Shown: piece by piece, positions 4,442 to 62,349 of the stretch | Layout of the letters: each line of letters opens with the position of its first letter | Numbering within the stretch: the stretch's first letter is position 1 | Assembly: GCF_900172325.1 (NCBI RefSeq) | Contig: NZ_FWFR01000001.1 | Coordinates: 1,116,001 to 1,180,000, forward strand | From: Oceanibacterium hippocampi | GTDB lineage: Bacteria > Pseudomonadota > Alphaproteobacteria > Sneathiellales > Sneathiellaceae | Length of the DNA stretch: 64,000 nt | Direction of reading: 5' to 3' | Position numbers and translations under genes: made by a program | The notes under the pieces: model-generated | Told to the model about the DNA's origin: nothing | Databases searched by the model: none | What the model saw: the letters and a program-made list of their open reading frames with translations, nothing else

Positions 4442-4508
4442 AACGCGGCAGGACTTTCCCCTTTCCCGGCGCCGGCAATGCCGCCCGGGCCGATCGAGGA
4501 GACAGACA

Positions 4509-5483: not shown

Positions 5484-5909
5484 ATGGCGCTGATCGACGG
5501 GTGTATTTTCTGCAGGATTATCCGGGGCGAGATCCCGGCCTTCAAGCTGATCGACGACGAGCAGGTCGTCGCCTTCATGGACATCAACCCGGCCAATCCG
5601 GGACATGCCCTGGTGATCCCGAAGTTCCACGCCCGCGACCTCTACGAGATGCCGGACGAATGGCTGGCCCCGGTGATTGCCGCGGCACGCCGTGTGGCCC
5701 GCGCGGTGACGGCGACGCTCGACCCGGACGGGCTCAACCTGCTGCAGGCGAACGGGCCGGGCGCGGCGCAGTCGGTGGAGCATTTCCACCTTCACGTCCT
5801 GCCGCGCAATCTCGGCGACGATCTCTCGCTCAACTGGGCCATCGTGCCGGGTGACATGGACGCCATCGCCTCCCTCGCCGAGAAGATCCGCGGGCACCTG
5901 TCGCCGTGA
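5484..5909 (+). CDS. HIT family nucleotide-binding protein
   Basis: A 141-residue histidine-triad hydrolase or transferase. CIFCRIIRGEIPA opens the fold with two cysteines, and the triad HFHLHVLPR places histidines near 100, 102 and 104. HIT proteins of this Hint-like branch hydrolyse adenosine phosphoramidates; the physiological substrate here is not known. The ATG at 5484 has GGAGG 8 bases upstream, better than the in-frame ATG at 5460. It stands alone between a hydrolase gene and a flavoenzyme gene. Confidence 0.9.
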   Translation: MALIDGCIFCRIIRGEIPAFKLIDDEQVVAFMDINPANPGHALVIPKFHARDLYEMPDEWLAPVIAAARRVARAVTATLDPDGLNLLQANGPGAAQSVEHFHLHVLPRNLGDDLSLNWAIVPGDMDAIASLAEKIRGHLSP

Positions 5910-6013
5910 ACGGCGTATCGGGTGGCTGTCGTGCGCGCGGCGGTTGACGGGCCGCCCCGGCGCCGGTCACCCTGTCGGTCGGGTTCCGGATCAACGGATG
6001 GCGGGGGAGAGCG

Positions 6014-7612
6014 ATGAGCGCGCGCCAGGTCAAGTTCTGTGGTTGGGGCTACGAGGGCGAAGGGCTCGACGCGACCGAGGAAAAGCTGGTCCTCGGCACC
6101 GTCGCCGCCCGCTTCGGGGTCGACGGCTTCGAACGGAAGGCGGCACCGAAGCCTGACGACATCACGCTGCCGGCGCCGCGTGTCGCCGCGCCCGGGGATC
6201 TTGCCGGATTGGTTTCGGCGGATCATCGGGACCGGCTGTTGCATACCTACGGCCAGTCCTATCCGGACTACGTGCGGATGTTCGCCCGCGACTTCGCCCA
6301 TGCGCCCGACCTCGTCGGTCATCCGGAAAGCGAGGAGGATGTCGCCGCGCTGATCGACTGGGCCGGCGGCGCCAACGTGGCGGTCATTCCGTTCGGTGGC
6401 GGTACCTCGGTGGTCGGCGGTGTCGAGCCGGCGGTCGGCGACGGATTCGCGGCCGTCATGAGCCTCGACCTGACCGGGCTCGACAGGGTGCTGGAGATCG
6501 ACCGCGCGTCGCGCGCCGTTCGCGTCCAGGGCGGCATGCGGACGCCGGCGCTCGAGGCGGCGCTGAAGCCGCACGGGCTGACCCTCCGGCATTTTCCGCA
6601 GAGCTTCGAGATGGCGACCGTCGGCGGCATGATCGCGACCCGGTCGGGCGGCCATTTCGCCACGCTCTACACCCATATCGACGATTTCGTCGAGGCGACG
6701 CGAAGCGTCACCGGGGCCGGCATCATGGAGACCCGCCGGCTGCCGGGCTCCGGCGCCGGGCCCTCGCCCGACCGGCTGATGATCGGCTCGGAAGGCTCGC
6801 TCGGCGTGATCACCGAGGCCTGGCTCAGGCTCCAGGACCGGCCGACCCACCGGGCCTCCACGGCGATCCTGTTCGACGATTTCTTCGCCGCCGCCGAATG
6901 CGTCCGCCAGATCGCCCAGTCCGGCCTCTACCCGGCCAATACCCGGCTGCTCGACCAGAACGAGGCGCTGGTCAACGGCTTCGGCGACGGCCGGCGCAGC
7001 GTCGTCGTGCTCGGCTTCGAAAGCCACGATCACCCGGTCGACGCCTGGATGAACCGCGGACTGGAAATCTGCCGCGCCAACGGCGGCCATTACGATGCCG
7101 AGGCGGCCCGCGATCCGGAGGGGCACAAGCAGGGCGCGGCCGGCGCCTGGCGCAGCGCCTTCATCAAGATGCCGCACTTCCGCACCGCCCAGGTCGCCAA
7201 CGCGATCATCTCGGACACCTTCGAGACGGCGATAACCTGGGACCGCTTCCGCGAGTTCCACGAGAATGTCATGGCCGCGACGACGCGGGCGCTGCACGAC
7301 GCGACCGGGCGGGCCGGCATCGTCACCTGCCGCTTCACCCATGCCTACCCGGACGGCGCTGCGCCGTATTATTCCTTCCATGCGCTCGGCCGGCACGGGG
7401 CGCTGATGGAGCAATGGACCGAGATCAAGAAGCGCGCATCCGACGCGGTGATCGAGCATGGCGGCACCATCACCCATCACCATGCGGTCGGCCGCGATCA
7501 CATGCCCTGGTATGCGCGCCAGCGGCCCGCCCTGTTCGGCGCCGCGCTGAAGGCGGTGAAGGGCACGCTCGACCCGCACGGGATCTTCAACCCCGGTGTC
7601 GTCGTTACCTGA
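6014..7612 (+). CDS. FAD-linked oxidase, alkyldihydroxyacetonephosphate synthase-like
   Basis: A 532-residue flavoprotein of the VAO/PCMH superfamily. The FAD-binding loop is PFGGGTSVVGGVE (about 127-139), followed by MIATRSGGHFATLYTHIDDF and DRLMIGSEGSLGVIT. The C-terminal HHHAVGRDH (about 490-498) matches the triple-histidine motif of eukaryotic ADHAPS, the enzyme that swaps acyl for alkyl in ether lipid synthesis. Bacterial homologues are widespread and mostly uncharacterised, so an ether-lipid role is only a possibility; a hydroxyacid dehydrogenase is the alternative. The ATG was chosen with GGGGGAGAG upstream. Confidence 0.85.
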   Translation: MSARQVKFCGWGYEGEGLDATEEKLVLGTVAARFGVDGFERKAAPKPDDITLPAPRVAAPGDLAGLVSADHRDRLLHTYGQSYPDYVRMFARDFAHAPDLVGHPESEEDVAALIDWAGGANVAVIPFGGGTSVVGGVEPAVGDGFAAVMSLDLTGLDRVLEIDRASRAVRVQGGMRTPALEAALKPHGLTLRHFPQSFEMATVGGMIATRSGGHFATLYTHIDDFVEATRSVTGAGIMETRRLPGSGAGPSPDRLMIGSEGSLGVITEAWLRLQDRPTHRASTAILFDDFFAAAECVRQIAQSGLYPANTRLLDQNEALVNGFGDGRRSVVVLGFESHDHPVDAWMNRGLEICRANGGHYDAEAARDPEGHKQGAAGAWRSAFIKMPHFRTAQVANAIISDTFETAITWDRFREFHENVMAATTRALHDATGRAGIVTCRFTHAYPDGAAPYYSFHALGRHGALMEQWTEIKKRASDAVIEHGGTITHHHAVGRDHMPWYARQRPALFGAALKAVKGTLDPHGIFNPGVVVT

Positions 7613-13691: not shown

Positions 13692-14070
13692 GGGGGCTGA
13701 TCCCGGCCCTTGCATCTCGGGTCATTAACGGCGGTCATTGGTTTGCGACTTGATGAGTACGATGGCAGTGAACGCTAGTGTTGCTTCGGGCACCACCTGA
13801 TTTGGATGTATTGCCCAACCATCAGGGTACCGGGCAACCTCACTGTTCGGTCTCCAACAACAATATGACTTTTATTGCGGTGACTGAATGAAACTCGCCA
13901 TTCATTCGCACAAATGCACAAACTTCAATTTGATCCAATAGAAAGAGTTTTGATTTATTTAGTAGAGAGTCGCTGGTGCATGGGATCGGGCGGCTGCGGA
14001 GACCTCAGCTAAGGCGCCCCCTTGGATTTTATCGGCTACTAGTTAGGCATTCTCTATCGGAGATTTTAAC
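13692..14070. other. Gene-free left flank of an AT-rich island
   Basis: These 379 bases hold no convincing gene. Composition falls from GC-rich host DNA to AT-rich DNA between about 13.73 and 13.96 kb (for example AGAGTTTTGATTTATTTAGTAG). The segment probably includes the promoter of the following HEPN-like gene and the left boundary of the island. No tRNA or recognisable attachment repeat was seen. Confidence 0.5.
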
Positions 14071-14494
14071 ATGATAGATCCAAATAACGACGAGCCAAAA
14101 AGGAAACTGAATTTATCCTTTAAGGAAGGTCTTGCAACATTCCATGGTGTGTGGGCGGCGGTCGATTTAATAACCGACTTCGCTATCTATCGTTTCCTAA
14201 GTGTTACTCCGGAGCAGGCCCACCTCATCACATCAGGAATGATGTATGGCCGTAAGGCCCAGTTACTCGCTGATCTCGTTGGTCGGAGCGATCACCCCAA
14301 ACGGGACAAGATATTAGGTGCACTCAATTGGATTCGAGGTGGTGCCAAGCGAGATATTGTCACTCACGGATATCATAAACAAGATGAGAACAATATTACA
14401 TTTGTTCAGAGATCATATAGTGGGGAATTCAAAGCAGTAGAGCATTCATTTACAAATCGAGAATTCCGCGCTCATGTATTGAAGTTAATCGAAA
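14071..14494 (+). pseudogene. HEPN-like gene, 5' part, cut by the IS1595-type element
   Basis: The frame opens at ATG 14071 and is broken at codon 142 by the mobile element. Deleting the element and one copy of the 8-bp target duplication joins this part in frame to 17120-17244, restoring a 182-residue protein. The restored protein is helical, with SFKEGLATFHGVWAAVDLITDF at the start and KRDIVTHGYH in the middle; RDIVTH fits the RX4-6H motif of HEPN RNases. The basic tail (KSKNSPRKSRRGR) is on the far side. The element end adds ten foreign codons before a stop, so a truncated protein might still be made. HEPN membership is inference from one motif and helical character. Confidence 0.7.
14487..14494. 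repeat. Target site duplication, left copy
   Basis: AATCGAAA immediately precedes the left inverted repeat and is repeated exactly at 17112-17119. Eight bases is the duplication length typical of the IS1595 family. Confidence 0.95.
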
Positions 14495-14517
14495 GGGGTG
14501 TATCCCCTCAGCATACG
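14495..14517. repeat. Left terminal inverted repeat
   Basis: The first 23 bases of the element begin GGGGTGTATCCCCT and end CATACG. They match the right end in inverse orientation at 20 of 23 positions, differing only in the three bases between those blocks (CAG here, TGA at the other end). Confidence 0.93.
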
Positions 14518-14579
14518 TAAGTCGGCATTGACCTGACGCGAGAATCCCGGATACCCTTCCCGTAAAACGGGAGGGGAAA

Positions 14580-15479
14580 ATGGCGCGGTCAATACCATAT
14601 ATATTCTGTCGGTATCGCATGGCGGTTCAAGAACAGGCCCTAGACGTACATGGCCAGAGACAGTTTTTGAACGAAGAACAGGGCAATGGGCTGCCGCATG
14701 GGCGGCTTCGTGCGGACAGGCCGCAAGCAAATGCCCTGATCATGGAGCCGAATGAATTCGAGTCTGACGGCGAGATTTGTTTGACGTGGTCTGTTGGCAT
14801 TCGAGCTGGTGTTCGTATTCAAACAGAGTACGACAGCCAAACCCGAACACGGACCCTTCAACTCGTAGCCGATCCACATATCAGGTTTGCACCGGTCTTG
14901 GCGTTACCGGAACGAGGCATCATGGCGATAGAAGATCGATCAGGCGATGAACAGATTTCCGCCCGGCAGGCTATAGGAGCCTTTCGGACTATCATGCAAA
15001 CGGTCCACGACGGCGACGGTAGTTTCGAGGTTCACCACGGCGATCCGGAAGATATTGAGCGTTGGCTCGATGAGTGGGAACTCAAAGAATATTCGTATAC
15101 GATCGCGCCACTTAACCCGATTTCGGCTTCGGCATTTGCGGAGAGGCGGTCTGAGGCCATGAAGCGCGAAAATGTATGGAAAGATGCCGGGAAAGTGTTG
15201 CCGCCAGAGGGGCAATCGATGCAACCGAATGGCGGCATAATTCAAGAAGCAAATGAACTTTCAGAGGTTGGCTATGGCCAGCGTGGTTTCAGGGGGCGCA
15301 CTCCAGATGGTCATATTGCGCATGTTCCAAAACCACGGTTTCATGATGACAGGCACAAGAACCTTGCCGAGCAACAGAAGCCTCATTTCGTACGCGTAAT
15401 GTTCGAGCCAGATAACGGACAGGACACCTTTTTAGGCGGTCAAGTGGCTAGCGCTCTGCGGCGTTTCTACGGGGGCTAG
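14580..15479 (+). CDS. Cargo protein A of the IS1595-type element, unknown function
   Basis: A 299-residue soluble protein, not recognised. The first 50 or so residues look unstructured and may be non-native; ATG 14742 (MEPNEFESDGEICLTW) is an alternative start. The central part (about 60-210) alternates beta-like and helical segments and has the distinctive YSYTIAPLNPISASAFAERR. The C-terminal third is basic and polar. The ATG at 14580 has GGGAGGGG just upstream. The next gene begins 2 bases after its stop, so they form one unit. Codon use is less GC-biased than the host's, fitting recent transfer. Pairing a soluble protein with a four-helix membrane protein resembles two-part abortive-infection systems, but that is analogy only. 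Confidence 0.75.
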   Translation: MARSIPYIFCRYRMAVQEQALDVHGQRQFLNEEQGNGLPHGRLRADRPQANALIMEPNEFESDGEICLTWSVGIRAGVRIQTEYDSQTRTRTLQLVADPHIRFAPVLALPERGIMAIEDRSGDEQISARQAIGAFRTIMQTVHDGDGSFEVHHGDPEDIERWLDEWELKEYSYTIAPLNPISASAFAERRSEAMKRENVWKDAGKVLPPEGQSMQPNGGIIQEANELSEVGYGQRGFRGRTPDGHIAHVPKPRFHDDRHKNLAEQQKPHFVRVMFEPDNGQDTFLGGQVASALRRFYGG

Positions 15480-15481
15480 GT

Positions 15482-16063
15482 ATGGACAGCCGCCCTAAAT
15501 TTCTCACGGCATTCTTTAAGAACGTGAGTGAATCATACGATCGAAATGGCGTGCGCGCGATTGTCCCGTGGTGGCTTTTCCTGGGACTTGCCGTCGGCAC
15601 CGTCGTGGCATGGTACATGCCAGAATCTTATTGGTGGGAGAAAAAGTGGGATATCGCAACAACGGTTTTCACGGGATTTCTTGCGTTTGATGGCCTGCTG
15701 CTTGCGTTGGGCTGGGGCGCATTCTCCAAAATATATGAAATTCTGAGTACCGGATGGTTCGCCGCATTTTTGCGGCGTCACGATCTTCTCGGTGATCATC
15801 TGTTTTTTGTTGACGCGGTTCATGCGATCTTGGTTTTGTCAGCCGTTTCGAGCGGCGCGGCTCTTGTGTCCGTACTCCTCCCGCTGCCGCTTTGGTCTGA
15901 TCGCATCATTCTTGCAGTAGTTGTCGGTTTATCTCTGTGGTCGCTGACGAAGGCGCTATCTGCAATGAGCATGATGAATGACTTGATATGGGAACTTGCA
16001 CATTCAGAACCAGATGACCGGGGTCATCTTCGCCCGGTGGATTCTGGCGAGCGTAGCCGATGA
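15482..16063 (+). CDS. Cargo protein B of the IS1595-type element, four-helix membrane protein
   Basis: A 193-residue inner-membrane protein, not recognised. Four hydrophobic segments are apparent: about 26-46 (IVPWWLFLGLAVGTVVAWYM), 58-80, 105-135 and 140-160. The two ends are polar. The start ATG lies 2 bases after cargo gene A, and its stop TGA overlaps the ATG of cargo gene C as ATGA, implying translational coupling of all three. It could be a pore-like effector or an anchor for protein A. Function unknown. Confidence 0.75.
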   Translation: MDSRPKFLTAFFKNVSESYDRNGVRAIVPWWLFLGLAVGTVVAWYMPESYWWEKKWDIATTVFTGFLAFDGLLLALGWGAFSKIYEILSTGWFAAFLRRHDLLGDHLFFVDAVHAILVLSAVSSGAALVSVLLPLPLWSDRIILAVVVGLSLWSLTKALSAMSMMNDLIWELAHSEPDDRGHLRPVDSGERSR

Positions 16064-16233
16064 TAACGCTTCGAAAAGCCCTGAAAGAAGGCAAGCTCAA
16101 GCAGTTCATCCGGGAACACGAGAAGGACGCTCCCGGTGACCTAGAGAAGCTTGAGAAGGTGATCAAGCGTCCCGCGTCGGATAGGTCGAAAGAAGCTCGG
16201 ACAGCATCGTCTCGGAACGCTTCCGACGATTGA
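16060..16233 (+). CDS. Cargo protein C, 57-residue charged protein overlapping the transposase gene end
   Basis: A small soluble protein beginning MITLRKALKEGKLKQFIREH and ending ASSRNASDD. It is strongly charged and probably helical for the first 40 residues, then disordered. Its ATG overlaps the stop of cargo gene B (ATGA). Its last 71 bases are antisense to the 3' end of the transposase gene, so both reading frames are used in 16163-16233. The translational coupling and the typical amphipathic start make it a real gene despite its size. I have the impression that similar small proteins accompany other IS1595 elements; this is unverified memory. Confidence 0.72.
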   Translation: MITLRKALKEGKLKQFIREHEKDAPGDLEKLEKVIKRPASDRSKEARTASSRNASDD

Positions 16234-17047
16234 AGCGGTACTCGAATTCCTTGGCGTAGCGCTCAAGGTACTTCGCCGAAACGCTGGTGTGCGTGCCCTT
16301 GATCGAGCACTTGAGGTGCCGCCAGAAGTTCTCAATCGAATTGACGGTCACGCCCTCGTCTGAGACGTAGCGGCCTTCGCTGTGGTTCACGGTGTCGTGG
16401 TCGTAGCCGAGCGCTGACAGATTGTCGTAGGAGGCCAGTTCGTCGGTATCGACGTAGGAGCCCTTGCGGACGTTGGCTTCGATGATTGGCTGCAAGGTCG
16501 AGCGGCGGACGTTCGGGACCACCTTGACCATAACCGCGCCGTCACGCTGCAGCATGCCGAGGACAACGGTCTTGCCGGCTGCGCCGCGACCGCGCTTGCC
16601 CTTGCGGACGCCACCAACCATCGTCTCGTCAATCTCGACGGTATGGCCGACACCGCCAAGCGGGTCTTCTCCGTCGATCTCAGCCATGTGCTCGCGGATC
16701 TTGTGGCCCATGCGATGGGCCGTCTTGTACGTCACGCCGGTCTGGCGCTGGATTTCCTTGGCAGACACGCCATGCCGGGTCGTCGTGAACAGGAAGACGA
16801 CATAGAACCAGAGCTGCAACGGGGTGCGAGACTTCTCAAAGATGGTCCCGACAGTCGGGTGCAGGTGATTGCCGCACCACTGGCAGGAGAACGCCCGTTC
16901 GGCCTCTATCGGATACCACTTGGCTTCACGTTCGCAACGGGGGCAGACATGGCCCTGGCCGAAGCGTACGTCGAACAGATGCTGAAGGCAGGCCGCATCA
17001 TCGGGGAAGAGTTTGAAGAATTCACGGACTGTCGTCGGCTTGGGCAT
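16163..17047 (-). CDS. IS1595-family transposase (ISXO2-like DDE)
   Basis: A 294-residue transposase. An N-terminal zinc-finger-like domain has CPRCER (about 35-40) and CQWCGN (about 55-60), followed by HLHPTVGTIFEKSRTPLQLW, the conserved Zn-ribbon/helix boundary of the family. The ISXO2-like catalytic core begins at VEIDETMVGG (about 138-147); the second acidic residue is in YVDTDELASYDNL, and the last part has VTVNSIENFWRHLKCSIKGTH, the usual N-x3-E/H pattern. The ATG at 17047 has AAGGAGAAC upstream. It is full length and apparently intact. The gene reads toward the cargo genes and overlaps the last one antisense. Confidence 0.95.
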   Translation of the reverse strand: MPKPTTVREFFKLFPDDAACLQHLFDVRFGQGHVCPRCEREAKWYPIEAERAFSCQWCGNHLHPTVGTIFEKSRTPLQLWFYVVFLFTTTRHGVSAKEIQRQTGVTYKTAHRMGHKIREHMAEIDGEDPLGGVGHTVEIDETMVGGVRKGKRGRGAAGKTVVLGMLQRDGAVMVKVVPNVRRSTLQPIIEANVRKGSYVDTDELASYDNLSALGYDHDTVNHSEGRYVSDEGVTVNSIENFWRHLKCSIKGTHTSVSAKYLERYAKEFEYRFNRRKRSETMLSELLSTYPTRDA

Positions 17048-17088
17048 TGGATGTTCTCCTTATGCCCTATAGGTGGGAATTCATTCAC

Positions 17089-17111
17089 CGTATGTCAAGG
17101 GGATACACCCC
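17089..17111. repeat. Right terminal inverted repeat
   Basis: The last 23 bases of the element end GGGGATACACCCC and mirror the left end at 20 of 23 positions. The transposase gene starts about 42 bases inside it. Confidence 0.93.
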
Positions 17112-17119
17112 AATCGAAA
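17112..17119. repeat. Target site duplication, right copy
   Basis: AATCGAAA is identical to 14487-14494. The identity of both copies suggests the insertion is recent or maintained. Confidence 0.95.
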
Positions 17120-17244
17120 TGGCGCATCAGCTAGAAGATGGCCTCGATCTCGATTGGGATGATGTGCGCGAGTTTGGAAACGCTGCATTCAATCTCAATC
17201 GTAAGTCGAAGAACTCTCCTCGTAAATCAAGGCGCGGAAGATGA
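17120..17244 (+). pseudogene. HEPN-like gene, 3' part
   Basis: This is the continuation of the gene opened at 14071. Once the element is removed, codon A plus TG gives Met and the frame reads MAHQLEDGLDLDWDDVREFG, then a basic tail and a TGA at 17242-17244. The exact in-frame join is the main proof that a gene was interrupted. Confidence 0.8.
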
Positions 17245-17325
17245 TTGAGTTCCGCCGACTAATCATGATGGGCTTGCCAAATGGGCATTACCCCATAGAA
17301 AGCGATGCGATTAATCTTGTTATCG

Positions 17326-17808
17326 TCACCTTTCCCGGATCGCCTCCTCCCCCACCGGCAGGGCGCTGTCCCATTTGACCTCGCGCAGCGCGAAGTTGGA
17401 ATGCACCCGGGCGACGCAGGGAAGCTGGAAGACAAAGTCGCGCAGGAAGCGGTCGTAGGCGGCGATTTCCGGCACGACGACGCGGAGCAGGTAATCGGCC
17501 TCGCCGGTGGTCGCGTAGCATTCGAGGATCTCCGGGTGGCGCCGGACCGCCGCGACGAAGGCCTCGGTCGTTTCCATCGTATGTCGCTCCAGGCTGATAT
17601 GGGCGAAGACGCATTCGCCCTGGCCGACCTTCTTCGGGTCGAGCAGCGCGGTATAGCGGCGGATCACGCCCGTCTCCTCCAGCGCCTTGACCCGCCGCCA
17701 GCAGGCCGCCGCCGACAGCCCGGCGCGCTCGGCCAGCTGCTGGTTGGTGAGCCGGGAATTCTCCTGCAGGGCGGCGAGGATGCGCCGATCCGATTTCTCC
17801 AGAATCAT
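17326..17808 (-). CDS. Lrp/AsnC family regulator
   Basis: A 160-residue regulator. The N-terminal winged helix-turn-helix (about 5-50) includes NSRLTNQQLAERAGLSAAACWRRV, and the RAM/AsnC effector domain follows (VFAHISLERHTM, then ILECYATTGEADYLLRVVVP, the classical dimer and ligand-binding segment). It is divergent from the indolepyruvate ferredoxin oxidoreductase gene 170 bases away, a pairing seen in many proteobacteria, so it probably controls that gene in response to an aromatic or branched amino acid. The ATG at 17808 begins the usual LEKSDRRIL start. Confidence 0.92.
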   Translation of the reverse strand: MILEKSDRRILAALQENSRLTNQQLAERAGLSAAACWRRVKALEETGVIRRYTALLDPKKVGQGECVFAHISLERHTMETTEAFVAAVRRHPEILECYATTGEADYLLRVVVPEIAAYDRFLRDFVFQLPCVARVHSNFALREVKWDSALPVGEEAIRER

Positions 17809-17978
17809 GATTGCCGAATAATCCTTTCAGTATGCGGCGCATACTCGCGAAAAATATCCGAAATCCTATGTCCGGACGGATTGGATAGAAAGCCTTTTTC
17901 GCCGAGACCGGCCTAGACTCGTGTCCGTGACTGCCAACAGCGCCCGTGCGGGTCGCGGGCGGGAAGGACGGGACGGAC

Positions 17979-20900
17979 ATGGATATCGCCGAGCCGGAAG
18001 ACCGCTGGGGCACCCTGCTGGACCGGGCCTACGGTCTCGACGACCGCTACCGGCGGGAGCACGGCCGGGTGTTCCTGACCGGCACCCAGGCGCTGGTCCG
18101 GCTGATGCTCATGCAGCGCGCGCTCGACCGCCGCGACGGGTTGGCCACGGCGGGTTTCGTCGCCGGCTATCGCGGCTCGCCGCTCGGCGGTGTCGACCAG
18201 GCGCTGTGGCAGGCGGCCGGGCATCTGAAGGATCATGACATCCGCTTCCTGCCAGCGCTGAACGAGGATCTCGCGGCGACCGCGGTGCTCGGCTCCCAGC
18301 AGGTCGAGGGCGCGCGGGGCGCGACGGCGGACGGCGTCTTCGCGCTCTGGTACGGCAAGGGACCGGGCGTCGACCGGGCCGGTGACGCGCTGAAGCACGG
18401 CAACGCCTTCGGTTCCTCGGCCCGTGGCGGCGTGCTCGCGGTCGCCGGCGACGACCATGGCTGCGTCTCCTCCTCGATGCCGCACCAGTCGGACGAGGCG
18501 ATGATTGCCTTCGGCATGCCGGTGATCCACCCGGCCGATGTCGCCGACTATCTCGATTTCGGCCTCTGGGGCTTCGCCGCCTCGCGCTTCTCAGGCGCCT
18601 GGGTGGGCTTCAAGGCGATCTCCGAGACGGTTGAAAGCGCCGCGAGCGTGCCGCTGAAGCCGCTGCCCCGCTTCGCCCTGCCGGACGGTTACATGCCGCC
18701 CGCGGGCGGGCTCAACATCCGCTGGCCGGACCTGCCCGGCCCGCAGATCGAGGAACGGCTGTTTGCCAAGCGGGAGGCGCTGCTCGCCTTCGCCCGCGCC
18801 AATCCGCTCGACCGCGCGGTCTGGCGGCCGAAGCGGGCGCGCATCGGCATCGTCACCGTTGGCAAGGCGCACCAGGACGCGCTGGAGGCGCTCCGCCGGC
18901 TCGGCCTCGACCGGGCGGGCGCCGAGGCGGCCGGGATCGGGCTCTACAAGGTCGGGCTGGTCTGGCCGCTGGAAGGCCGCGGGCTGGCCGAGTTCGCCCG
19001 GGGCCTCGACACGCTGGTCGTGGTCGAGGAGAAGCGCGGGCTGGTCGAACGACAGGTGAAGGAGCTGTTCTACGGCCTGCCGGATGGCGAACGCCCGGCG
19101 GTGCTCGGCAAGCGGGACCGGGCCGGCAAGGCGCTGGTGCCCGAGGGTGGCGAGCTTCGCCCGCGGATGCTGGCGCGCCTGCTCGCGCCCGTGCTGGAGA
19201 CCGCGCTGCCGGGCATCGCGCTCGATCGCTCCGCGCTTGCCGACGTCGCGCATGCCCGCCCGACCGGCGACGGGGCGAAGCGGCTGCCCTATTTCTGCCC
19301 GGGCTGCCCGCATTCGACCTCGACCAGGGTGCCGGAGGGTTCGGAGGCCTTTGCCGGCATCGGCTGCCATTTCATGGCGTCGTGGATGGACCGCTCGACC
19401 ACCTCGCTGATCCAGATGGGCGGCGAGGGGGTCAACTGGGTCGGCAAGGCGCCGTTCACCGGCGACGGCCATGTCTTCCAGAATCTCGGCGACGGGACCT
19501 ATTTCCATTCCGGCCTGCTGGCGATCCGCCAGGCGATCGCCGCCGGCGTCAACATCACCTACAAGATCCTCTACAACGACGCGGTCGCGATGACCGGCGG
19601 CCAGCCGGTCGACGGCACGCTCTCGGTGCCGGCGATCGCCGCCCAGGTCCGGGCCGAGGGCGTGACGCGGATCGCCCTGGTCGCGGCCGAGCCGGACAAG
19701 TACCGCGCCCGTGCCGGCCTGCCGGACGGCGTGACGATCCACCATCGCGACGACCTGGACGCCGTGCAGCGCGAACTGCGCGAGGTTCGGGGCACCTCCG
19801 TGCTGATCTACGACCAGGCCTGCGCGACCGAGCTCCGCCGCAAGCGGAAGCGCGGAACCGTGCCCGAGGCGCCGAAGCGGGCCTTCATCAACGAGGCGGT
19901 CTGCGAGGGCTGCGGCGACTGCACTGTGCAGTCCAACTGCCTCGCCGTGCAGCCGGTCGAGACCCCGCTCGGGCGCAAGCGGCAGATCGACCAGGCAGCC
20001 TGCAACGTCGATCTCTCCTGCCTCAAGGGCTTCTGCCCGAGCTTCGTCACCGTCGAGGGTGCGCGCCTGCGGAAACCCGCCGCAGCCGAGATCGACCCGG
20101 CGCTGTTCGCGGCGCTGCCCGTACCGGCGGCGCGCGGGCTCGACCGGCCGTGGGAAATCCTCGTTGCCGGGGTCGGCGGCACCGGCATCGTCACCATCGG
20201 GGCGCTGATCGCCATGGCCGCGCACCTGGAGGGCAAGGGCGCCCGCGTGCTCGACTTCACCGGCTTCGCCCAGAAGGGCGGCGCGGTGCTGAGCCACGTC
20301 CGCCTCGGCGCCGATCCGGCGGCGCTCCACCAGGCGCGGATCGACGAGGGCGCGGCCGACCTCGTCATCGCCGCCGACCTCGTGGTCGCCTCCGACCGGG
20401 CGGCGCTCGCCACCTGCCGGCCCGGCGCGACCCGGATCGTCGCGCATTCGGCCGAGATCCCGACCGCCGAGATGCTGCGCAACCCGACCGCCCGCGTCGA
20501 CGTGGACGGCCGGCTGGCGGCGCTGGAGGCGGCGACCGGCAAGGGCCGCGTCAGCGCGGTCGCGGCCGGGCGCCTCGCCCACCGGCTGATGGGCGATCCG
20601 GTCTTCGCCAATGTCATGCTGCTCGGCCATGCCTTCCAGCAGGGGCTGGTGCCGGTTTCCGAGGCCGCGCTCGACCGCGCCATCGAACTGAACGGCGTCG
20701 CCACGGCCGACAATGCCCGGGCCTTCGCCTGGGGCCGGCTGATGGCGCACGACCCGGATGCCGTGCTTCGCGCCGCCGGGATCGAGGCGGCACCGGTCGC
20801 GGAGGACGCGGCGGCGATGATCGCCCGCCGGGCCGCGAGCCTCGCCGATTACCAGGATGCCGCCTATGCCGACCGCTATCGCGCCTTCATGGCCCGCGTC

Positions 20901-47431: not shown

Positions 47432-48949
47432 ATGGGGGGACTGACCGGACCGAAGATGAGGGGGGAATCCGAGCGTCGGGGATTCGTGTGGAGGGCGGAA
47501 TGGATCGTCCTGCTCCTCCTGTCCGCGCTCGTCCTGCTGTTTCTTGCCTACCAGGTCTATGGCCTTCAGGCCGGCTATTCCTACTGGTTCGACGAGCTTT
47601 TCAGCGTCGTCGCCGGCAAGCTCCCGGTCGGCGAGGCCGTCGGGGTCTACATCAACGACCCCCACCCGCCCTTCTACCCGCTGCTTCTCACCGGTTGGAT
47701 CGCGCTTTTCGGCGATTCGGAGGCGGCGACCCGGAGCCTCTCCGTCATCTTCGCCCTGGGCACGCTCTGGGTCCTTTCAATGACCGTGGCGCGTGTCGGC
47801 AGGCGGGTCGTCGCGATGATGCTGGTGATCGTGCTTTCGAACTGGCTCATCTGTCATTACGCGCAGGAGGCCCGGCCTTATGCCGCCCTCCTTTTCGTCT
47901 CGGCGATGGTGTTCGCTTTCGCGGTGAACGACCGGCGCGGCCCGCTGCTGCTCACGCTCGTACTACTCGGGCTGACCCACTATTTCGGCGCGCTGCAGGC
48001 ATTCGCCTATCTCGCCTGGCTCGCCGCCTTCGAAAGTCGCACGCTGCGGAGCTGGCTCGGCCTGGCCGCGGCGGGCACGGCGATCCTCGTCTGGCCGGCG
48101 ATCTTCCTCGTCGTCGGACGCGGCATGTCGCTTGTCGGCGGCAATTTCTGGATCGAGGCGACGCCGGCCGATGCGCTCCGGCAATCGGCGATGGCGTCGG
48201 CGCCGTGGCTCTGGGACGCCGTGGACCGCTTCGCGGGGCTCGTCGGGCTCGATGCCGGTGCCGGCGGCCTGCTGCTCAGGCTCGCCGCGGTGGCGGGAAT
48301 CGGCATCCTCCTTCTGGTGCGGTTGAGGGGCGCCGGGGCGGGTGAGGGAATGCGGCGGAACGTGCTCCGCGCGGCCTTCGTCGCCCTCCTCACGACCCTT
48401 GGCGCCGCGGCGATCAACCTGCACACGCCCGTGAGCACGGACCGGAACTTCATCGTGATGGTCCCGTTGGCGTCCTACCTCCTCGCCGAAGCCATCGCCG
48501 CCGTCTGGCGGTCGCGCGCCGGCGCCGGGTTCGCCGTTGCCGGGCTTGCGGTCATCGCGCTGGTTGGCCAGCTGCAGATACGCGACGTGATGGCAGGACG
48601 GTTCCTGCCGCACCAGGATTGGCACTGGGTGGCGGACGCGGTGGTGGCCGAGGCCGGCCGCACCGGCGGCGGCACCTATTTCTATTCCAGGTGGGGAAGT
48701 GGATTCTATCACCGGCTTTCGGCCTATTACATGCCGGAAGGCCAGGAAGTCGGGATCGTCGAGATGGAGAAGCTCGGGCAGCTGGAGCCGGGCGCGATCG
48801 TCTTCTTCGGCAATCTCGTCGGCCATCTGGACGGCGCACGCTGCGTCACGGAACTGCAGCAGGCGCTGGATGCCCGCGGCATGCTCTACCGGGCCGAGTT
48901 CGCGAACCAGGCGGCGCGATGCAGCAACGGCTACGTCGTGCTCGAGTGA
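47432..48949 (+). CDS. GT39-like membrane protein (glycosyltransferase)
   Basis: A polytopic membrane protein of about 505 residues with ten or more hydrophobic helices. YSYWFDELFSVVAGKL (first periplasmic loop acid pair) and NDPHPPFYPLLLTGWIALFG match the GT39/ArnT-like superfamily, as does SHYAQEARPYA-type sequence near residue 145. It is similar in layout to the transferase at 26.2 kb but has no adjacent GT2 partner. The start is unclear: ATG 47432 and ATG 47456 are in frame and neither has a good ribosome-binding site. Upstream, 47269-47431 is AT-rich promoter DNA. Confidence 0.75.
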   Translation: MGGLTGPKMRGESERRGFVWRAEWIVLLLLSALVLLFLAYQVYGLQAGYSYWFDELFSVVAGKLPVGEAVGVYINDPHPPFYPLLLTGWIALFGDSEAATRSLSVIFALGTLWVLSMTVARVGRRVVAMMLVIVLSNWLICHYAQEARPYAALLFVSAMVFAFAVNDRRGPLLLTLVLLGLTHYFGALQAFAYLAWLAAFESRTLRSWLGLAAAGTAILVWPAIFLVVGRGMSLVGGNFWIEATPADALRQSAMASAPWLWDAVDRFAGLVGLDAGAGGLLLRLAAVAGIGILLLVRLRGAGAGEGMRRNVLRAAFVALLTTLGAAAINLHTPVSTDRNFIVMVPLASYLLAEAIAAVWRSRAGAGFAVAGLAVIALVGQLQIRDVMAGRFLPHQDWHWVADAVVAEAGRTGGGTYFYSRWGSGFYHRLSAYYMPEGQEVGIVEMEKLGQLEPGAIVFFGNLVGHLDGARCVTELQQALDARGMLYRAEFANQAARCSNGYVVLE

Positions 48950-48963: not shown

Positions 48964-49117
48964 CCTATTCCGCTGCCGCCGCCTTCTCGCCGCCGAAACG
49001 GGCCTCCATCGCCCGGCGGATCTTCACCGCGTCGAGGCTCTCGTCGATCGTGACATCCTGCCAGCGGACCGGGTCGCCCTCGGCGATGTCGGCCCTGAGC
49101 CGGACGCCGTGGGCAAG
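48964..49117 (-). pseudogene. Duplicated 3' end of the SAF-domain dehydrogenase gene (copy A)
   Basis: These 154 bases match 49846-49999 at all but three positions. They encode the last 50 or so codons of the dehydrogenase, including the terminal AAAAE and stop, but have no upstream coding sequence or start. The copy is a fragment left by a duplication or insertion event on the far side of the orphan gene. Confidence 0.9.
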
Positions 49118-49226
49118 CGTGACGCGCCGCGCTAGCCGCCCTGCCGAGCGTGCCTGCCATCCGGATAGAAAAGACCCAACCTATGCGGTAAAAATACTGC
49201 CAGTATATACATCACTGGGGCGTATC

Positions 49227-49784
49227 ATGGACGACATCGGCGATTTCATCGACGCAATCAGGCGCGCGCTTGAAGGCGTTGCCAGAGACGCGCAACAGTC
49301 TGGTTCTGGTTTCGAGTGGACAAGCGAGGTGAAGCGCGCCGTCAGGGAAATTGTCGATCCGGCAGCACCATGTGACGGCGAGAATACCAGCGGATCACGC
49401 TACAGCGTCTATGGACACAAGCGTGAAAAGGCCGATTGCACCGGCGAGTGGCTGTTCGATCTTTGCTGGCTCGACTACGTCGCGGTTCCCGACGACGAAA
49501 AGTCGTGCAAAAAATATCTCCGCGCGATGCCGCTGGCCATGGAAAGCGAGTTCGGGGGGCCGGAAGAGGTATGCGACGACTTCGGGAAACTTCTTGTTGC
49601 CCGTGCCGCGCTGAAAGTCATGGTGTTTTCCGACAAGAACCAGGCCAATACCGGCAGCCGCTTTGGCGCGATGCGCCGACAGATAAAGGCGTTCGAAGGA
49701 ATCGGCCCCGACGGCGAATATCTGCTCTGTTGCTGGTGCAACGACACGGAGGATTTTACTTTCGACCACGTTCCGGCCGCCTGA
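49227..49784 (+). CDS. Orphan protein between duplicated gene ends
   Basis: A 185-residue soluble, acidic protein beginning MDDIGDFIDAIRRALEGVA. It has several cysteines (CDGENTS, DLCWLDY, KSCKKYL, LLCCWCNDTED) and no recognised domain. Its composition is visibly less GC-biased than its neighbours. An inverted repeat CCAGT/ACTGG surrounds TATATA just upstream (49200-49218), a possible regulated promoter. It lies wholly between the two copies of the 154-bp repeat and reads opposite to the dehydrogenase, so it came in with, or caused, the duplication. Function unknown. Confidence 0.7.
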   Translation: MDDIGDFIDAIRRALEGVARDAQQSGSGFEWTSEVKRAVREIVDPAAPCDGENTSGSRYSVYGHKREKADCTGEWLFDLCWLDYVAVPDDEKSCKKYLRAMPLAMESEFGGPEEVCDDFGKLLVARAALKVMVFSDKNQANTGSRFGAMRRQIKAFEGIGPDGEYLLCCWCNDTEDFTFDHVPAA

Positions 49785-49845
49785 TAGTGTGATCGAGCGC
49801 TCGGGGGAATCTTTCCGCCGGCTTATGCTCGAACGGTGATTGGCT

Positions 49846-49999
49846 CCTATTCCGCTGCCGCCGCCTTCTCACCGCCGAAACGGGCCTCCATCGCCCGGCG
49901 GATCTTCACCGCGTCGAGGCTCTCGTCGATCGTGACATCCTGCCAGCGGACCGGGTCGCCCCGGGCGATGTCGGCCCTGAGCCGGACGCCGTGGGCAAG
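49846..49999. repeat. 154-bp direct repeat, copy B (3' end of dehydrogenase gene)
   Basis: This is the native copy of the repeat at 48964-49117, with 151 of 154 bases identical. The repeats are in direct orientation with a period of 882 bases and enclose 728 bases carrying the orphan gene. Confidence 0.92.
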
Positions 50000-51175
50000 T
50001 CCGATCGGCAGCCCGCCGAGCGCCAGCGAAGTCTTCGCCGGCATCAGCTTGCCCCAGACCGTGTGGCCGCCTTCGCCGTCCAGCATTTCGCCGGAACTCA
50101 GGGCACGCTTGGCGGTCGCCACCACGTCGCCCCGGAAGCCTTGCGTGGAGCCGGTCGGCTTGCCGAGCAGGGCGGCGGAGAGGATCGAGATGTTGAGTTC
50201 GAGCCCGATCAGGTGGAAGGGCTTGAACATCGCCGAATAGCGTCCCGACGCGTCGGTGTTCATGCCGTACTGGCGGAAGCAGCCGGCGGCATAGTCGTTC
50301 GGCGCCTCGATCACGACATAGACCCCCCAGCGGAGATCCTTGAAGACCGGCCGGCCGTCGCGCTCGAGCGAGGAGACGACCTCGACCTGGCCCCTGGCGG
50401 CGAGCTGGCCACCCTCCGACGCGGGACGTAACACGTGCGCCAGGTCGTCCGTCCCGGCCGGCGGGAAGGCGAGCCCGTCCGGCGGCGCGTCGAGCCCGGT
50501 GGCGTTGGCGATCGCCGCCATTTCCAGCGCCGACTTGGTGCCGTCGAGGAAGGAGTTGAACATCTGGCTGTTCATGCCGGCCGCCGCCGCCTGCTCGGCG
50601 GTCAGCCCGTAATGGTCCCAGACCGTGTCGGGCGTCGAGGCGTGGTAGGCGGGCAGGTACTTGGTGCCCTTGCCGGCGGCGACCACGTCGAAGCCGCAGG
50701 ATCGCGCCCAGTCGACCAGTTCGGCGGTCAGTGCCGGCTGATCGCCGTAGGCCATGGAATAGACGACGCCGGCGCGGCGCGCCTCCTCCGCCAGCAGCGG
50801 CCCGGCGAGCACGTCGGCCTCGACATTGACCATGACGATATGGATGCCGTTCCGGATCGCCGCGCGGGCATGGCCGAGCCCGGCCACCGGGTTGCCGGTC
50901 GCCTCGACCGCAACGTCGATCGCACCGGAGGCGAGCATCGTCATCGCGTCGTCGGTGAAGCGGGTGCGGCCGATCTGCTCGTCGGACCAGCCGACCGTGC
51001 GGCAGGCGGCCTTCGCCCGGTCCGGCGCCAGATCGGCGATAATGGCGACCTCGAGCCCCGGCGTGCTCGGCACCTGGGCGAGGAACATGGAGCCGAACTT
51101 GCCGGCGCCGATCAGGCCGACGCGTACCGGTTTGCCGGCCGCCGCGCGGGCGAGGAGATCGGAATGGAGATACAT
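49847..51175 (-). CDS. NAD(P)-dependent dehydrogenase with C-terminal SAF domain
   Basis: A 442-residue enzyme. VRVGLIGAGKFGSMFLAQV (about 18-36) is a Rossmann cofactor site, AVEATGNPVAGLGHARAA and NVEADVLAG resemble homoserine-dehydrogenase-like proteins, and the C-terminal LALGGLPIGLAHGVRLRAD is an SAF domain often mislabelled FlgA. The substrate is unknown. The ATG at 51175 has AAGGA upstream. It is 13 bases after the PhyH-family gene and completes the GntR unit. Its last 154 bases are duplicated downstream. Confidence 0.85.
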   Translation of the reverse strand: MYLHSDLLARAAAGKPVRVGLIGAGKFGSMFLAQVPSTPGLEVAIIADLAPDRAKAACRTVGWSDEQIGRTRFTDDAMTMLASGAIDVAVEATGNPVAGLGHARAAIRNGIHIVMVNVEADVLAGPLLAEEARRAGVVYSMAYGDQPALTAELVDWARSCGFDVVAAGKGTKYLPAYHASTPDTVWDHYGLTAEQAAAAGMNSQMFNSFLDGTKSALEMAAIANATGLDAPPDGLAFPPAGTDDLAHVLRPASEGGQLAARGQVEVVSSLERDGRPVFKDLRWGVYVVIEAPNDYAAGCFRQYGMNTDASGRYSAMFKPFHLIGLELNISILSAALLGKPTGSTQGFRGDVVATAKRALSSGEMLDGEGGHTVWGKLMPAKTSLALGGLPIGLAHGVRLRADIARGDPVRWQDVTIDESLDAVKIRRAMEARFGGEKAAAAE

Positions 51176-52794: not shown

Positions 52795-52875
52795 CTACTC
52801 CATTGCCGGGCCCGCCGCAGCCTCGTCCGGACCGGAAAAGGGCACGATGGCCTTGAACGACTGCGCCTTGGTCAT
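52795..52875 (-). CDS. 26-residue micro-ORF coupled to the lyase gene
   Basis: MTKAQSFKAIVPFSGPDEAA continues for six more residues to a stop. The ATG overlaps the TGA of the lyase gene (ATGA) and is preceded by GGGAGGAAAC, a near-ideal ribosome-binding site. It is followed by the GntR operator. It could be a small protein, a regulatory peptide or the remnant of a longer gene; length alone cannot decide. No similarity recognised. Confidence 0.5.
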   Translation of the reverse strand: MTKAQSFKAIVPFSGPDEAAAGPAME

Positions 52876-54473
52876 GTTTCCTCCCAGCCGCGCCCGGATA
52901 TCGGCGAGGGGGTGTCGGCGAACAGGTCGTGGATCGCGGCGACGGTGTCCGCCCGCCAGAGCGCCGCATGGACGGCATCGGCGTCCGGGCCGGTTTCCCG
53001 GTCCCCGGTGAGCGTCGGGCAGGCGGCACGGACGATCCGGTGCAGCATCCCACCGGCCGCGCCCGCGCGTGCCGCCGCATCCTCCGCCCCGAACCGCAGG
53101 TCGGCGGCCTGGGCGGCGACGAGCGCCTCGATCGCGATCAGCCAGCGGGCCAGCGCCGTCTGTTCGTCGAGCTTGCGGATGGTGAGCGGCGATTGCGGCG
53201 CCACGTCCTCGACCGTGTCGGAGACGGCGAGCGCGTCGAGGCTCGCCGGCTCAGCCTTCAGCCTGATCTCCGCATGCAGCGCGGCGACGGTCTTCTGCAT
53301 CGGCACGAGGCCGGCCGAGGCGCCGCCGACCGGGCTCAGATAATTCGGCAACCCGGTGAGACGCCCGGTCATCAGCTTGATCGTGCGCTGGGCCGAGGCG
53401 GTCGCCAGATGGGTCATGGCGATGGCGAGCGTGTCGAAGGCAAGCGCGATCGCCGGCGTGTGGAAGTTGGCCGTCGAATGGATCTCGCCCGCCCCCGCGC
53501 CGCCGCTGTCGTCGGGCAGCACCAGCGGATTGTCGGCGGTGGCGTTGAGCTCGACCTCGACCGCCGCCCGCGCCGCGTCGAAGGCGGCGAGCATCGTGCC
53601 GGTCACCGGCGCCAGCGTGCGAAACGACAGCGCGTCCTGCACCCGCGCCGTCGCGCTCTCCCGGGTGCCGCCTTTCAGCGCACGGCGGAACAGCGCCGCC
53701 GCCTCCCGCTGGCCGGCCGCCGGGCGGGCATCGGCGAAGCGTTCGTCGAAGATCCGCGGGTTGGCGCCGTAGCCCGCGCAGGCGAACGCGGCCGTGCTGA
53801 CATGAAGGGCCAGCGTGTCGCGGAGCCGATCGAGCGCCAGCGCCGCCATGGCGACCGTCACCGCCGAGCCGTTGCCGATGGCGAGCCCGTCCTTCGGGCC
53901 GAGTCGCGCCGGTTCGAGGCCGGCCGCGGCGAGCGCCTCGGCGCCCGGCATCGCGCGTCCGCCATGCACCGCCAGGCCGCGGCCGATCATCACGTCAGCG
54001 ATGGCCATCAGCAGGGCCAGGTCGCCGGCGCCGATCGAGCCCCGGCCCGGTACGACCGGCGTCACGTCGCGGGCCAGCATCTCGATCATCAGGTCATGGA
54101 CATGCGGCGAGATCCCGGCGCCGCCCCTGGCCAGCGCCACGGTCCGGCAGAAAAGCGCGGCCCGCGCGGTCTCGACCGGCAGCGGCTCGCCGATGCCGAC
54201 GACCCGGCCCCGGATCATCTGCTCCTGGAAGGCGGCCATTTCGCCCGGCGTGATACGGTGGCCGAGATTGCCGCCGAGCCCGGTGTTGAGGCCGTAAACC
54301 GGCGTCTCGCCGGCCGCATGGGCATCGACCACGGCGCGCGTGGCGGCCATGCGCGCGCGGATGTCGTCGGACAGCGTCAGGCGGAGCGGGGCGCGGGCGG
54401 CGCGAACCACGTCGGCGATGGTGAGCGGCGGCCCGTCGAGTGCGAGGCCCTGTTCGCGGACCGGAGCGCTCAT
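52872..54473 (-). CDS. Aromatic amino acid ammonia-lyase homologue lacking the MIO serine
   Basis: A 533-residue HAL/PAL-fold protein. The catalytic tyrosine is kept in VYGLNTGLGGN (Y60). The loop that normally reads GSVGASGDLAPL, whose Ala-Ser-Gly cyclises to the MIO cofactor, reads GSIGAGDLALL (about 145-155), one residue short with the serine missing. Other HAL segments are present (LIGNGSAVTV-like LAIGNGSAVTVA, ELNATADNPLV, IHSTANFHTP). Canonical MIO cannot form, so classical ammonia elimination is unlikely; elimination of a better leaving group such as a trialkylamine is possible, as proposed for ergothionase (recalled, not checked). ATG 54473 overlaps the cyclodeaminase stop (ATGA). Confidence 0.85.
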   Translation of the reverse strand: MSAPVREQGLALDGPPLTIADVVRAARAPLRLTLSDDIRARMAATRAVVDAHAAGETPVYGLNTGLGGNLGHRITPGEMAAFQEQMIRGRVVGIGEPLPVETARAALFCRTVALARGGAGISPHVHDLMIEMLARDVTPVVPGRGSIGAGDLALLMAIADVMIGRGLAVHGGRAMPGAEALAAAGLEPARLGPKDGLAIGNGSAVTVAMAALALDRLRDTLALHVSTAAFACAGYGANPRIFDERFADARPAAGQREAAALFRRALKGGTRESATARVQDALSFRTLAPVTGTMLAAFDAARAAVEVELNATADNPLVLPDDSGGAGAGEIHSTANFHTPAIALAFDTLAIAMTHLATASAQRTIKLMTGRLTGLPNYLSPVGGASAGLVPMQKTVAALHAEIRLKAEPASLDALAVSDTVEDVAPQSPLTIRKLDEQTALARWLIAIEALVAAQAADLRFGAEDAAARAGAAGGMLHRIVRAACPTLTGDRETGPDADAVHAALWRADTVAAIHDLFADTPSPISGRGWEET

Positions 54474-55474
54474 GCGTAGCGCAGCCGGTGGCCGATGCCG
54501 GCGGCCGCGGCCTTGGCGAGAATGGCGTGGCCGAGCGCGATGTCGGAGAGCGACAACCCGCGATGCCAGAGCAGGATGGTCTCGTCGTCGCTTTCCCGCC
54601 CGGGCCTGAGCCCGGCGACGATCTGGCCGAGCTCGGCATGCAGCGTCGCCTCGGAGAGCTTGCCCGCCTCGACATGGGCGCGGAGCGCGCCGAACTTGCC
54701 GCCCTTGCACTGGCCCCAGTCGTCGACCACCAGCTTCGCCATGATGTCAGTCAGCGAAAGCTCGACCGCGCTCATCGTCCCGTAGGGGACGACCAGCGCC
54801 CCGGGCTTTATCCATTCGGTCTTCAGCATTGGCTCCGGCGCCGGCAGGCGGGAGGCCTCGACGACGATGTCGGCGCCCGCCACGCATGTCTCCCAGTCGT
54901 CGGTCGCCACGACCGTCTTGCCGAGGTCGCGGGAAAGCCGTTCGGCGAAGGGCACCCGGCTTTCCGGGCGGCGGGAATGGACGCGGATCTCGTCGAAATC
55001 GAACAGCGAATTCAGGAGCCGCACGTTCCAGTAGGCGGTGCCGCGCGCGCCGATATGGCCGAGCACCTTCGCGCCCTTCCGCGCCAGGTGTTTCGCGCCG
55101 ACCGCGGTCACCGCGCCGGTCCGCATGTCGGTGATGCCGCTCGCATCCAGGATCGCCGTGGGCACGCCGGTGCGTGGATCGAACAGGTTGAGGATGCCGA
55201 ACTCGGACGGGAAGCCGTGCTTGTAATTGTCGACGAAGTCGCCGACCACCTTGACGCCGGCGGCATCGATCCCGCCGCCGATCCAGCCGCGCAGCACGTT
55301 GAAATGGCCCTCGACCCCGGCGCGCGGCTCCAGGTGCATGCGCGGTTCTATGACCGTCTCGCCACGCCCCTGCATGGCGAGGCTGGCCTCGATCGCGGCG
55401 ATGATCTCGCCATCGGTCAGCGCCGCCGCCTCGACATCGAAACGGTTCAGGTAGGTGAGATAGATCGGCTGCAT
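54470..55474 (-). CDS. Ornithine cyclodeaminase/mu-crystallin family protein
   Basis: A 334-residue NAD(P)-binding protein. GHFNVLRGWIGGG and VKVVGDFVDNYKHGFPSEFG lead to the cofactor region KVLGHIGARGTAYWNVRLL (about 147-165) and SRLPAPEPMLKTEWIKPGA. The family includes cyclodeaminases, ketimine reductases and alanine dehydrogenase-like enzymes. It is the first gene of the unit with GAGGAGGTTCC as ribosome-binding site, and it overlaps the lyase gene. Which reaction it performs cannot be told; an imine or amino-acid substrate is expected. Confidence 0.88.
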   Translation of the reverse strand: MQPIYLTYLNRFDVEAAALTDGEIIAAIEASLAMQGRGETVIEPRMHLEPRAGVEGHFNVLRGWIGGGIDAAGVKVVGDFVDNYKHGFPSEFGILNLFDPRTGVPTAILDASGITDMRTGAVTAVGAKHLARKGAKVLGHIGARGTAYWNVRLLNSLFDFDEIRVHSRRPESRVPFAERLSRDLGKTVVATDDWETCVAGADIVVEASRLPAPEPMLKTEWIKPGALVVPYGTMSAVELSLTDIMAKLVVDDWGQCKGGKFGALRAHVEAGKLSEATLHAELGQIVAGLRPGRESDDETILLWHRGLSLSDIALGHAILAKAAAAGIGHRLRYA

Positions 55475-60069: not shown

Positions 60070-61590
60070 TCAGTTATCTACTTGGGATAGTTCAATGAAC
60101 TCAATCTCGTCAAGGCGACTGGCTGCGCGGTAAATCGCACCGCGCACAGCGCTATTACTACGATATGTGTTGAGTAATCCGTCTAGGATCTCTAGAAGCG
60201 GTTCGACATTTTCAAAGTCATTGGGAAGCCCTTGAATGGCTCTTGCGATCAACGTCGGCTGATATCGATCGGCCAGACCATCGATCTCACCGGCTTGGAT
60301 TTCCTCGCCAACAGGTACGGCATTGCCACTCAATGCCGTGTAGGCGCGAAGTTCACCACGAAGCCGCTCAAGCGCTCGTTGTTTAGGGAGCAGGTAGACC
60401 GCTTCGGTAGCGTCAAGTATTTGAACCGCCTGTTCAACATTCTGACCACTTAGGTTGATGAAATAGAACAACGGTAGCCACTGACGTTGAACTTGAGCGG
60501 CAAGGCGTACGTACTCCATCGGAGTTCGTTCACGTTCATGGCGCAGGTAGGCCTTCACTGACATGTCAGCAGTCAGGGCGCGCTCTTCAATCCGCTCGCG
60601 AATCTGCCCATTTTGGTCAATGGCCCTTACGTCGCCGACAAGACGAAGCGTCGGCGAGCCTTCCCGTTCTAGAAACTCGCCTTCACGAATAAATTCAAGC
60701 TGGTCTGCCAATTCGCGATCAATGGTGATCTGAACATTGCCTGTATCGAGAGTTCCATCTTGAGTATCCACAATTAGTGCCTTGTCAGTTCCGATCGCTG
60801 ATAGTCTCGCAGCACTTGACAAGAGCATTGTCTGGCTCGAGTGGTCGCGCTCCCTCAGCATGGCGAGTAGATCGCCGAATTTGATACGCGCAGATTGACC
60901 GGGATACCGAAACAAGATGCTACCATCCGAAAGTCCGTCGCCATCGCGACAAACGATCACCGGGGGAAGTGAGTACTTCTCGACGTGGATGACACCAATT
61001 CTCAGACCGCCCAAATTAATGGAGCATTTCGAAAATATGGGCGTTGGCGTGAGGAAGGATTTTACCTTATCGGCTATTGTCGAAACATCGGTGTTTTCAA
61101 AGGTATCGTCGGGAAGTCCCACAACCCGGCATTCATCATCTGTAACCCCAATGAAGACAAATCCCCCCCGATTATTGGCTAGACCTGCCACTGCTCTGAC
61201 AATTGGAGTTAATCGCCTAGGATCGAAGGATTCCTTACATTCTTGCTCGGATGTCTCGCCATCGGCGAGATACCATTGGCCATCGGATCGGCGCTCGAAC
61301 CGCCCGTGCGCACGATCGGCCAGAGTCCTCCGTTGTGTTGCAGTATTGTCCTCAACAACAACACCGACCTCTCTAGGCGTGAAAGTTATCAAGAAAGCAT
61401 CTAATGCCGCGTCATTTGCCGTTGGGACATCGCGCCCGTAAGTGCCGCCTCTTATCTGGCTGATCCGGCCCGAATTCACCGGACGTTCCTGACGGTTGAA
61501 ATAGAACTGAATGTCGCGATTGCGCTGCCCACGCGCCAGCATTGCCTTTATCAGTCCGATCTCCTCATCGGTGATGCTGCGTTGTGGCAC
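60070..61590 (-). CDS. AlbA_2 (Schlafen-type) domain protein with N-terminal HTH
   Basis: A 506-residue protein in AT-richer DNA. The N-terminal segment (about 1-50, SITDEEIGLIKAMLARGQRN and NSGRISQIRGGTYG) looks like a helix-turn-helix. Residues about 110-200 are an AlbA_2 putative ATP/nucleic-acid-binding domain: EQECKESFDP, then AVAGLANNRGGFVFIGVTDD and VVGLPDDTFEN. The C-terminal 200 residues are helical and unrecognised. AlbA_2 proteins include transcription regulators and accessory or defence proteins. It stands alone, next to a long AT-rich gap and a tRNA gene. Confidence 0.82.
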   Translation of the reverse strand: MPQRSITDEEIGLIKAMLARGQRNRDIQFYFNRQERPVNSGRISQIRGGTYGRDVPTANDAALDAFLITFTPREVGVVVEDNTATQRRTLADRAHGRFERRSDGQWYLADGETSEQECKESFDPRRLTPIVRAVAGLANNRGGFVFIGVTDDECRVVGLPDDTFENTDVSTIADKVKSFLTPTPIFSKCSINLGGLRIGVIHVEKYSLPPVIVCRDGDGLSDGSILFRYPGQSARIKFGDLLAMLRERDHSSQTMLLSSAARLSAIGTDKALIVDTQDGTLDTGNVQITIDRELADQLEFIREGEFLEREGSPTLRLVGDVRAIDQNGQIRERIEERALTADMSVKAYLRHERERTPMEYVRLAAQVQRQWLPLFYFINLSGQNVEQAVQILDATEAVYLLPKQRALERLRGELRAYTALSGNAVPVGEEIQAGEIDGLADRYQPTLIARAIQGLPNDFENVEPLLEILDGLLNTYRSNSAVRGAIYRAASRLDEIEFIELSQVDN

Positions 61591-62273: not shown

Positions 62274-62349
62274 TGGTGCCCAGGGGCGGATTCGAACCAC
62301 CGACACGCGGATTTTCAATCCGCTGCTCTACCAACTGAGCTACCTGGGC
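62274..62349 (-). tRNA. tRNA-Phe (anticodon GAA)
   Basis: A complete cloverleaf on the minus strand: acceptor GCCCAGG paired with CCTGGGC, D-arm GCTCAGTTGGTAGAGC, anticodon stem-loop with GAA flanked by TT and AA, T-arm GGTTCGAATCC, and an encoded ACCA end. Its 76 bases are standard. Its 3' end faces the AT-rich gap, the usual side for integration events. Confidence 0.97.

Follow-up and report, generated by a model that had tools for sequence, protein, structure and literature searches.

A lone gene for a predicted BamHI-like nuclease is enclosed by a long direct repeat of a dehydrogenase gene end in Oceanibacterium hippocampi

The window analysed here, a stretch of 64,000 nucleotides from Oceanibacterium hippocampi, contains an intact dehydrogenase gene, a truncated stub of the same gene and, between the two, a segment of deviating base composition whose only gene belongs to a family that stands alone around its relatives as well. 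We interpret this locus, with moderate confidence, as a recent horizontal insertion accompanied by a long target duplication, for which a single crossover in the 3′ end of the dehydrogenase gene would be the likeliest route. The locus would then represent the fresh footprint of the entry of a single gene into a chromosome, with neither transposase nor integrase taking part and the neighbouring genes left unharmed.

Anatomy of the repeat and of the insert

The final 50 codons of the dehydrogenase gene, together with its stop codon and one further base, are present twice (Table 1). The two copies are in register, separated by a spacing of 882 bp and identical at 151 of 154 positions; these figures, already given in the first-pass annotation, were obtained again upon recomputation. 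The repeat starts one base beyond the stop codon of the dehydrogenase gene, which closes a conserved GntR-PhyH-dehydrogenase cluster, and only 15 bp separate the stop codon of the convergent glycosyltransferase gene from that of the stub. When 864 kb of genome stretches, window included, were compared with themselves by blastn, only two direct-repeat pairs of at least 40 bp and at least 80% identity lying less than 10 kb apart emerged. The second one is an ordinary 656-bp pair located elsewhere, 80% identical and far less alike. The near-uniqueness of the pair excludes chance, and the repeat is therefore both real and unusual.

The copies differ at three positions. The G/A difference at 48989/49871 is synonymous (Gly), while the TC/CG difference at 49080-49081/49962-49963 falls within a single codon, so that copy 1 encodes Glu and copy 2 Arg. 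At this codon the dehydrogenase orthologs mostly present A or K, and their comparison gave no direction for any of the three differences, which could have arisen by mutation after the insertion or reflect allelic variation. As a side observation, many proteins end in Ala-Ala-Glu or Ala-Ala-Gln (in the window at 49850 and 51192, in locus L028 and in many dehydrogenase orthologs), so that gene ends are similar.

Table 1. Features of the dehydrogenase 3′ end region, in window coordinates
Feature	Position	Strand	Basis or remark
Convergent neighbour, probable membrane glycosyltransferase	47432..48949	+	weak PMT_2 match
Direct-repeat copy 1, truncated stub of the dehydrogenase 3′ end	48964..49117	-	open frame without 5′ part
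Left insert part, 109 bp upstream of the nuclease-like gene	49118..49226	.	
Nuclease-like gene P0001, 185 aa	49227..49784	+	predicted BamHI-like PD-(D/E)XK fold; conserved D78, E106-x-E108, K121
Right insert part, 61 bp, with short palindrome CGAGCGCTCG	49785..49845	.	sequence
Direct-repeat copy 2, 3′ end of the intact dehydrogenase gene	49846..49999	-	
Intact dehydrogenase gene, DRL_cat, NAD-binding and SAF domains	49847..51172	-	

The insert between the two copies (49118-49845, 728 bp) has a GC content of 58.1% compared with 66.9% for the window. Its sole gene, with an ATG start at 49227, exhibits a GC3 of 0.69 compared with 0.86-0.94 in five neighbours, in agreement with the initial description of an AT-richer insert holding one gene. 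Comparison with shuffled sequences revealed no excess of residual homology outside the repeat, none between the two ends of the insert and no terminal inverted repeats of the insert, and Rfam gave no matches in the region.

Just 5′ of the nuclease-like gene, an inverted repeat CCAGT..ACTGG is present at 49200-49218. It is overlapped by a 20-mer at 49195 that matches the E. coli LexA box at 14 of 20 positions, the best score in the window. As alphaproteobacterial LexA recognises a motif different from the E. coli LexA box, this site is considered as a lead only. Further along, ARAGORN called a tRNA-Gly at 53841-53932 inside a minus-strand ORF (52872-54710), a call that is probably spurious.

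Fold and active site of the nuclease-like protein

None of the models of Pfam, NCBIfam, PHROGs and PADLOC fits P0001; single other members of the family showed weak, scattered matches in these collections, and a search of the PDB by sequence profile returned nothing meaningful. An AlphaFold2 model, computed from an 11-row alignment, presented a pLDDT of 82.9 and a pTM of 0.84. Its helices (H) and strands (E), H28-40, E60-63, E79-86, E96-108, H112-123, E129-136, H139-155 and E164-171, follow the alpha-beta-beta-beta-alpha-beta core order of the PD-(D/E)XK superfamily. Upon structural re-ranking BamHI came first with a Z-score of 8.5 (3.5 Å, 124 residues), followed by BglII (7.7) and OkrAI (7.3); NucC, BamHI, PaqCI and EcoRV were among the matches of an earlier, poorer fold model. 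Foldseek on the model gave nothing below an E-value of 0.001, with an acetyl-CoA carboxylase at the top rank. Considering that the Z-scores are moderate and that Foldseek alone is not significant, the PD-(D/E)XK-like fold is well supported, not proven.

The 11 sequences of the family share three motifs, W-L-[FY]-D...W, which includes D78, E106-x-E108, and D118-F-x-K121-L. In the alignment, D78, the two glutamates of E106-x-E108 and K121 are invariant in all of them. The active site of BamHI is PD94-E111xE113 (PMC8845596). Judged from the aligned sequences, the motif layout of the family is that of a PD-(D/E)XK active site in its E-x-E variant, and P0001 is predicted to be a small BamHI-like DNA-cutting enzyme. 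It is similar to BamHI, OkrAI and BglII in predicted fold and in size, and to BamHI also in the D...E-x-E pattern, but it differs from the three enzymes in presenting no detectable sequence similarity to them and no cognate methyltransferase, its activity being a prediction.

The neighbours of the gene are the probable glycosyltransferase, the dehydrogenase and PhyH genes. No cognate methyltransferase for P0001 was found among them, and the locus thus does not present the adjacent DNA methyltransferase of a type II restriction-modification system. Without a partner methylase, P0001 would act in defence as a nuclease that is conditional or dependent on modification, unless it is an inactive relic. 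A BamHI-like family that travels without methyltransferase raises the question of which target is cut and how the host survives.

Relatives of the gene and empty sites

The gene had been described as an orphan, a term that does not hold in its strict sense, since ten distant relatives were found, seven by a degenerate-pattern search of species genomes and three by a profile search. The family is undescribed and sparse. It is present in 4 of 385 genomes of the class, the window's own genome included, and in a phylum-wide draw of 398 genomes only the window's own genome carried it. The gene is absent from all 24 other genomes of the bacterial family (the genus is represented in the sample by one genome), and no relatives were found in phages, plasmids or viral contigs. 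The absence from these 24 genomes, together with the patchy occurrence of relatives elsewhere, indicates that the nuclease-like gene was horizontally acquired.

The surroundings of the relatives were read from ORF lists. In three loci (L005, L028 and L029) the family gene lies between convergent genes, and in two others (L006 and L007) it lies between RidA-like and acyl-CoA dehydrogenase-like genes, with start and stop codons overlapping or abutting. One relative (L010) was judged to be near a C5-methyltransferase gene and a Vsr-like gene. In L011, the gene is flanked on the left by 369 bp that repeat an upstream segment with 91% identity and on the right by a copy of an HNH-type gene's 3′ end (47 bp, 98%), a duplication which is older and more complex. 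The duplicated unit extends over 1819-4584 of that locus; the body of the HNH-type gene is missing and the nuclease-like relative stands in its place.

Empty sites were found in two other genera. One genome (G319) carries the family gene at a site that in its sister species G764 is occupied by some 97 bp. A further genome of this genus (G767) presents, at the same spot, a cluster (L104, about 1290-6290) whose genes include a multicopper-oxidase-like and a cytochrome c-like one, so that this spot accepts different inserts. In a genome of the second genus (G197) the gene is located between two convergent hairpins, while its sisters G773 and G775 have only a short spacer there, with flanks 91-95% identical. 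The empty sister sites of G319 and G197 therefore show twice, for this family, the insertion of a lone gene between convergent genes. No long repeat is left at either of these two loci.

The regions of the dehydrogenase orthologs were compared in 11 genomes, over 9-18 kb each. PhyH mostly adjoins the gene, often with GntR. A second dehydrogenase 3′ end or stub was found in none of the 11 regions, nor was the glycosyltransferase neighbour.

Possible routes of entry

In the explanation that we favour, about 0.7 kb of foreign DNA with one BamHI-like nuclease gene would have been introduced into the space that separates the convergent glycosyltransferase and dehydrogenase genes, and this entry would have duplicated the final 154 bp of the latter. 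The incoming molecule, circular or end-joined, would have carried the nuclease gene beside a copy of the dehydrogenase end. One homologous crossover between this molecule and the chromosomal dehydrogenase 3′ end would then give the order intact dehydrogenase, insert, stub, glycosyltransferase, with both host genes still working. A single crossover would explain why the repeat reaches just one base beyond the stop codon and why the two host genes survived. We infer this route from the structure of the locus, which other ways could also yield. Neither an allele of this site without the insert nor a donor molecule or strain was found, and the two empty-site loci in other genera, which lack a long repeat, count against this reading.

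Such products have been described in a laboratory plasmid conjugation test, in which a duplication PCR product was obtained from 56 of 60 lacZ recombinants and the 14 that were sequenced contained a duplication of 109-950 bp, which was attributed to a single crossover involving a circular molecule (PMC3240628). The two cases are alike in that a homologous gene end is duplicated beside foreign DNA, the present event being a natural one. For restriction systems, too, insertion can be accompanied by duplication of the target on the scale of 100 bp (PMC3874152; PMC3031569), and at the present locus a gene predicted to be of restriction type lies within a long direct repeat of its target. As far as the insertions of restriction-modification genes reported by Nobusato (2000) and Furuta (2010) are presented in the paper citing them (PMC3874152), the locus shares with them a target-derived repeat on the scale of 100 bp and the lack of integrase and transposase. 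It differs from these insertions, as presented there, by a one-gene cargo of an undescribed family, by the lack of a methyltransferase and by a repeat that corresponds to a gene 3′ end. This type of mobility is familiar. What is new is that the cargo is solitary and lacks a methylase, and that the insertion could be set beside empty sites from other genera.

A crossover requires homology in the donor, and the target could instead have been duplicated without it, if a break or staggered cut had occurred in the dehydrogenase 3′ end, maybe made by the nuclease itself, and if repair had copied the 154 bp on both sides, a course that has been put forward for certain restriction-modification systems. 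The size of the repeat fits the order of 100 bp known for restriction systems (PMC3874152; PMC3031569), and the cargo is BamHI-like in its predicted fold. A left repeat end placed one base past a stop codon is, however, unexpected of a random cut, an objection that selection for intact genes weakens, and the two loci with empty-site comparisons present no repeat. We regard this alternative as rather unlikely.

A tandem duplication of the dehydrogenase end, with the middle subsequently replaced by foreign DNA, had also been proposed in the first-pass annotation. The relative L011, which lies within a duplicated unit from which the HNH body is missing, provides a parallel. At the present locus it would nevertheless require two events, and only the gene end is repeated, with no flank beyond the stop codon, so that we consider it improbable.

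The same annotation had suggested an insertion restoring its target gene in the manner of integrating elements. The insertion itself agrees with the anatomy, with the composition and with the two cases of a lone insert facing an empty site, and the block of identity does stop at the 3′ end of the restored gene. These features would suit a non-autonomous element mobilised in trans by an integrase acting at the dehydrogenase 3′ end, whose own copy of the gene end restores the target. The 728-bp insert carries no integrase, and an integrase is thus not indicated. In addition, no duplicated dehydrogenase end was found in the 11 ortholog regions, and the family members elsewhere are at unrelated sites without repeats. 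This part of the proposal is not supported, and we consider it about as improbable as the tandem duplication.

More speculatively, the gene could be self-mobile. The methylase-less BamHI-like nuclease would cut between convergent genes, be copied in during repair and leave behind a long target duplication, to be eroded over time, a scenario to which we give little credence. Finally, an assembly artefact joining two places via the 154-bp repeat is highly improbable, for although the genome consists of 18 contigs, the copies, which are located far inside a 2.3-Mb contig, differ at three positions, and nowhere else in the genome was either part found.

Two other parts of the window also deviate from its composition. 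The interval 14001-18000 has 49-60% GC within the 67% GC of the window. An AT-rich gene (44-52% GC), which by eye looks like an AlbA/Schlafen-type ATP-binding protein gene, lies near a tRNA-Phe gene (60070-61590 and 62274-62349, respectively), and is possibly a separate insertion.
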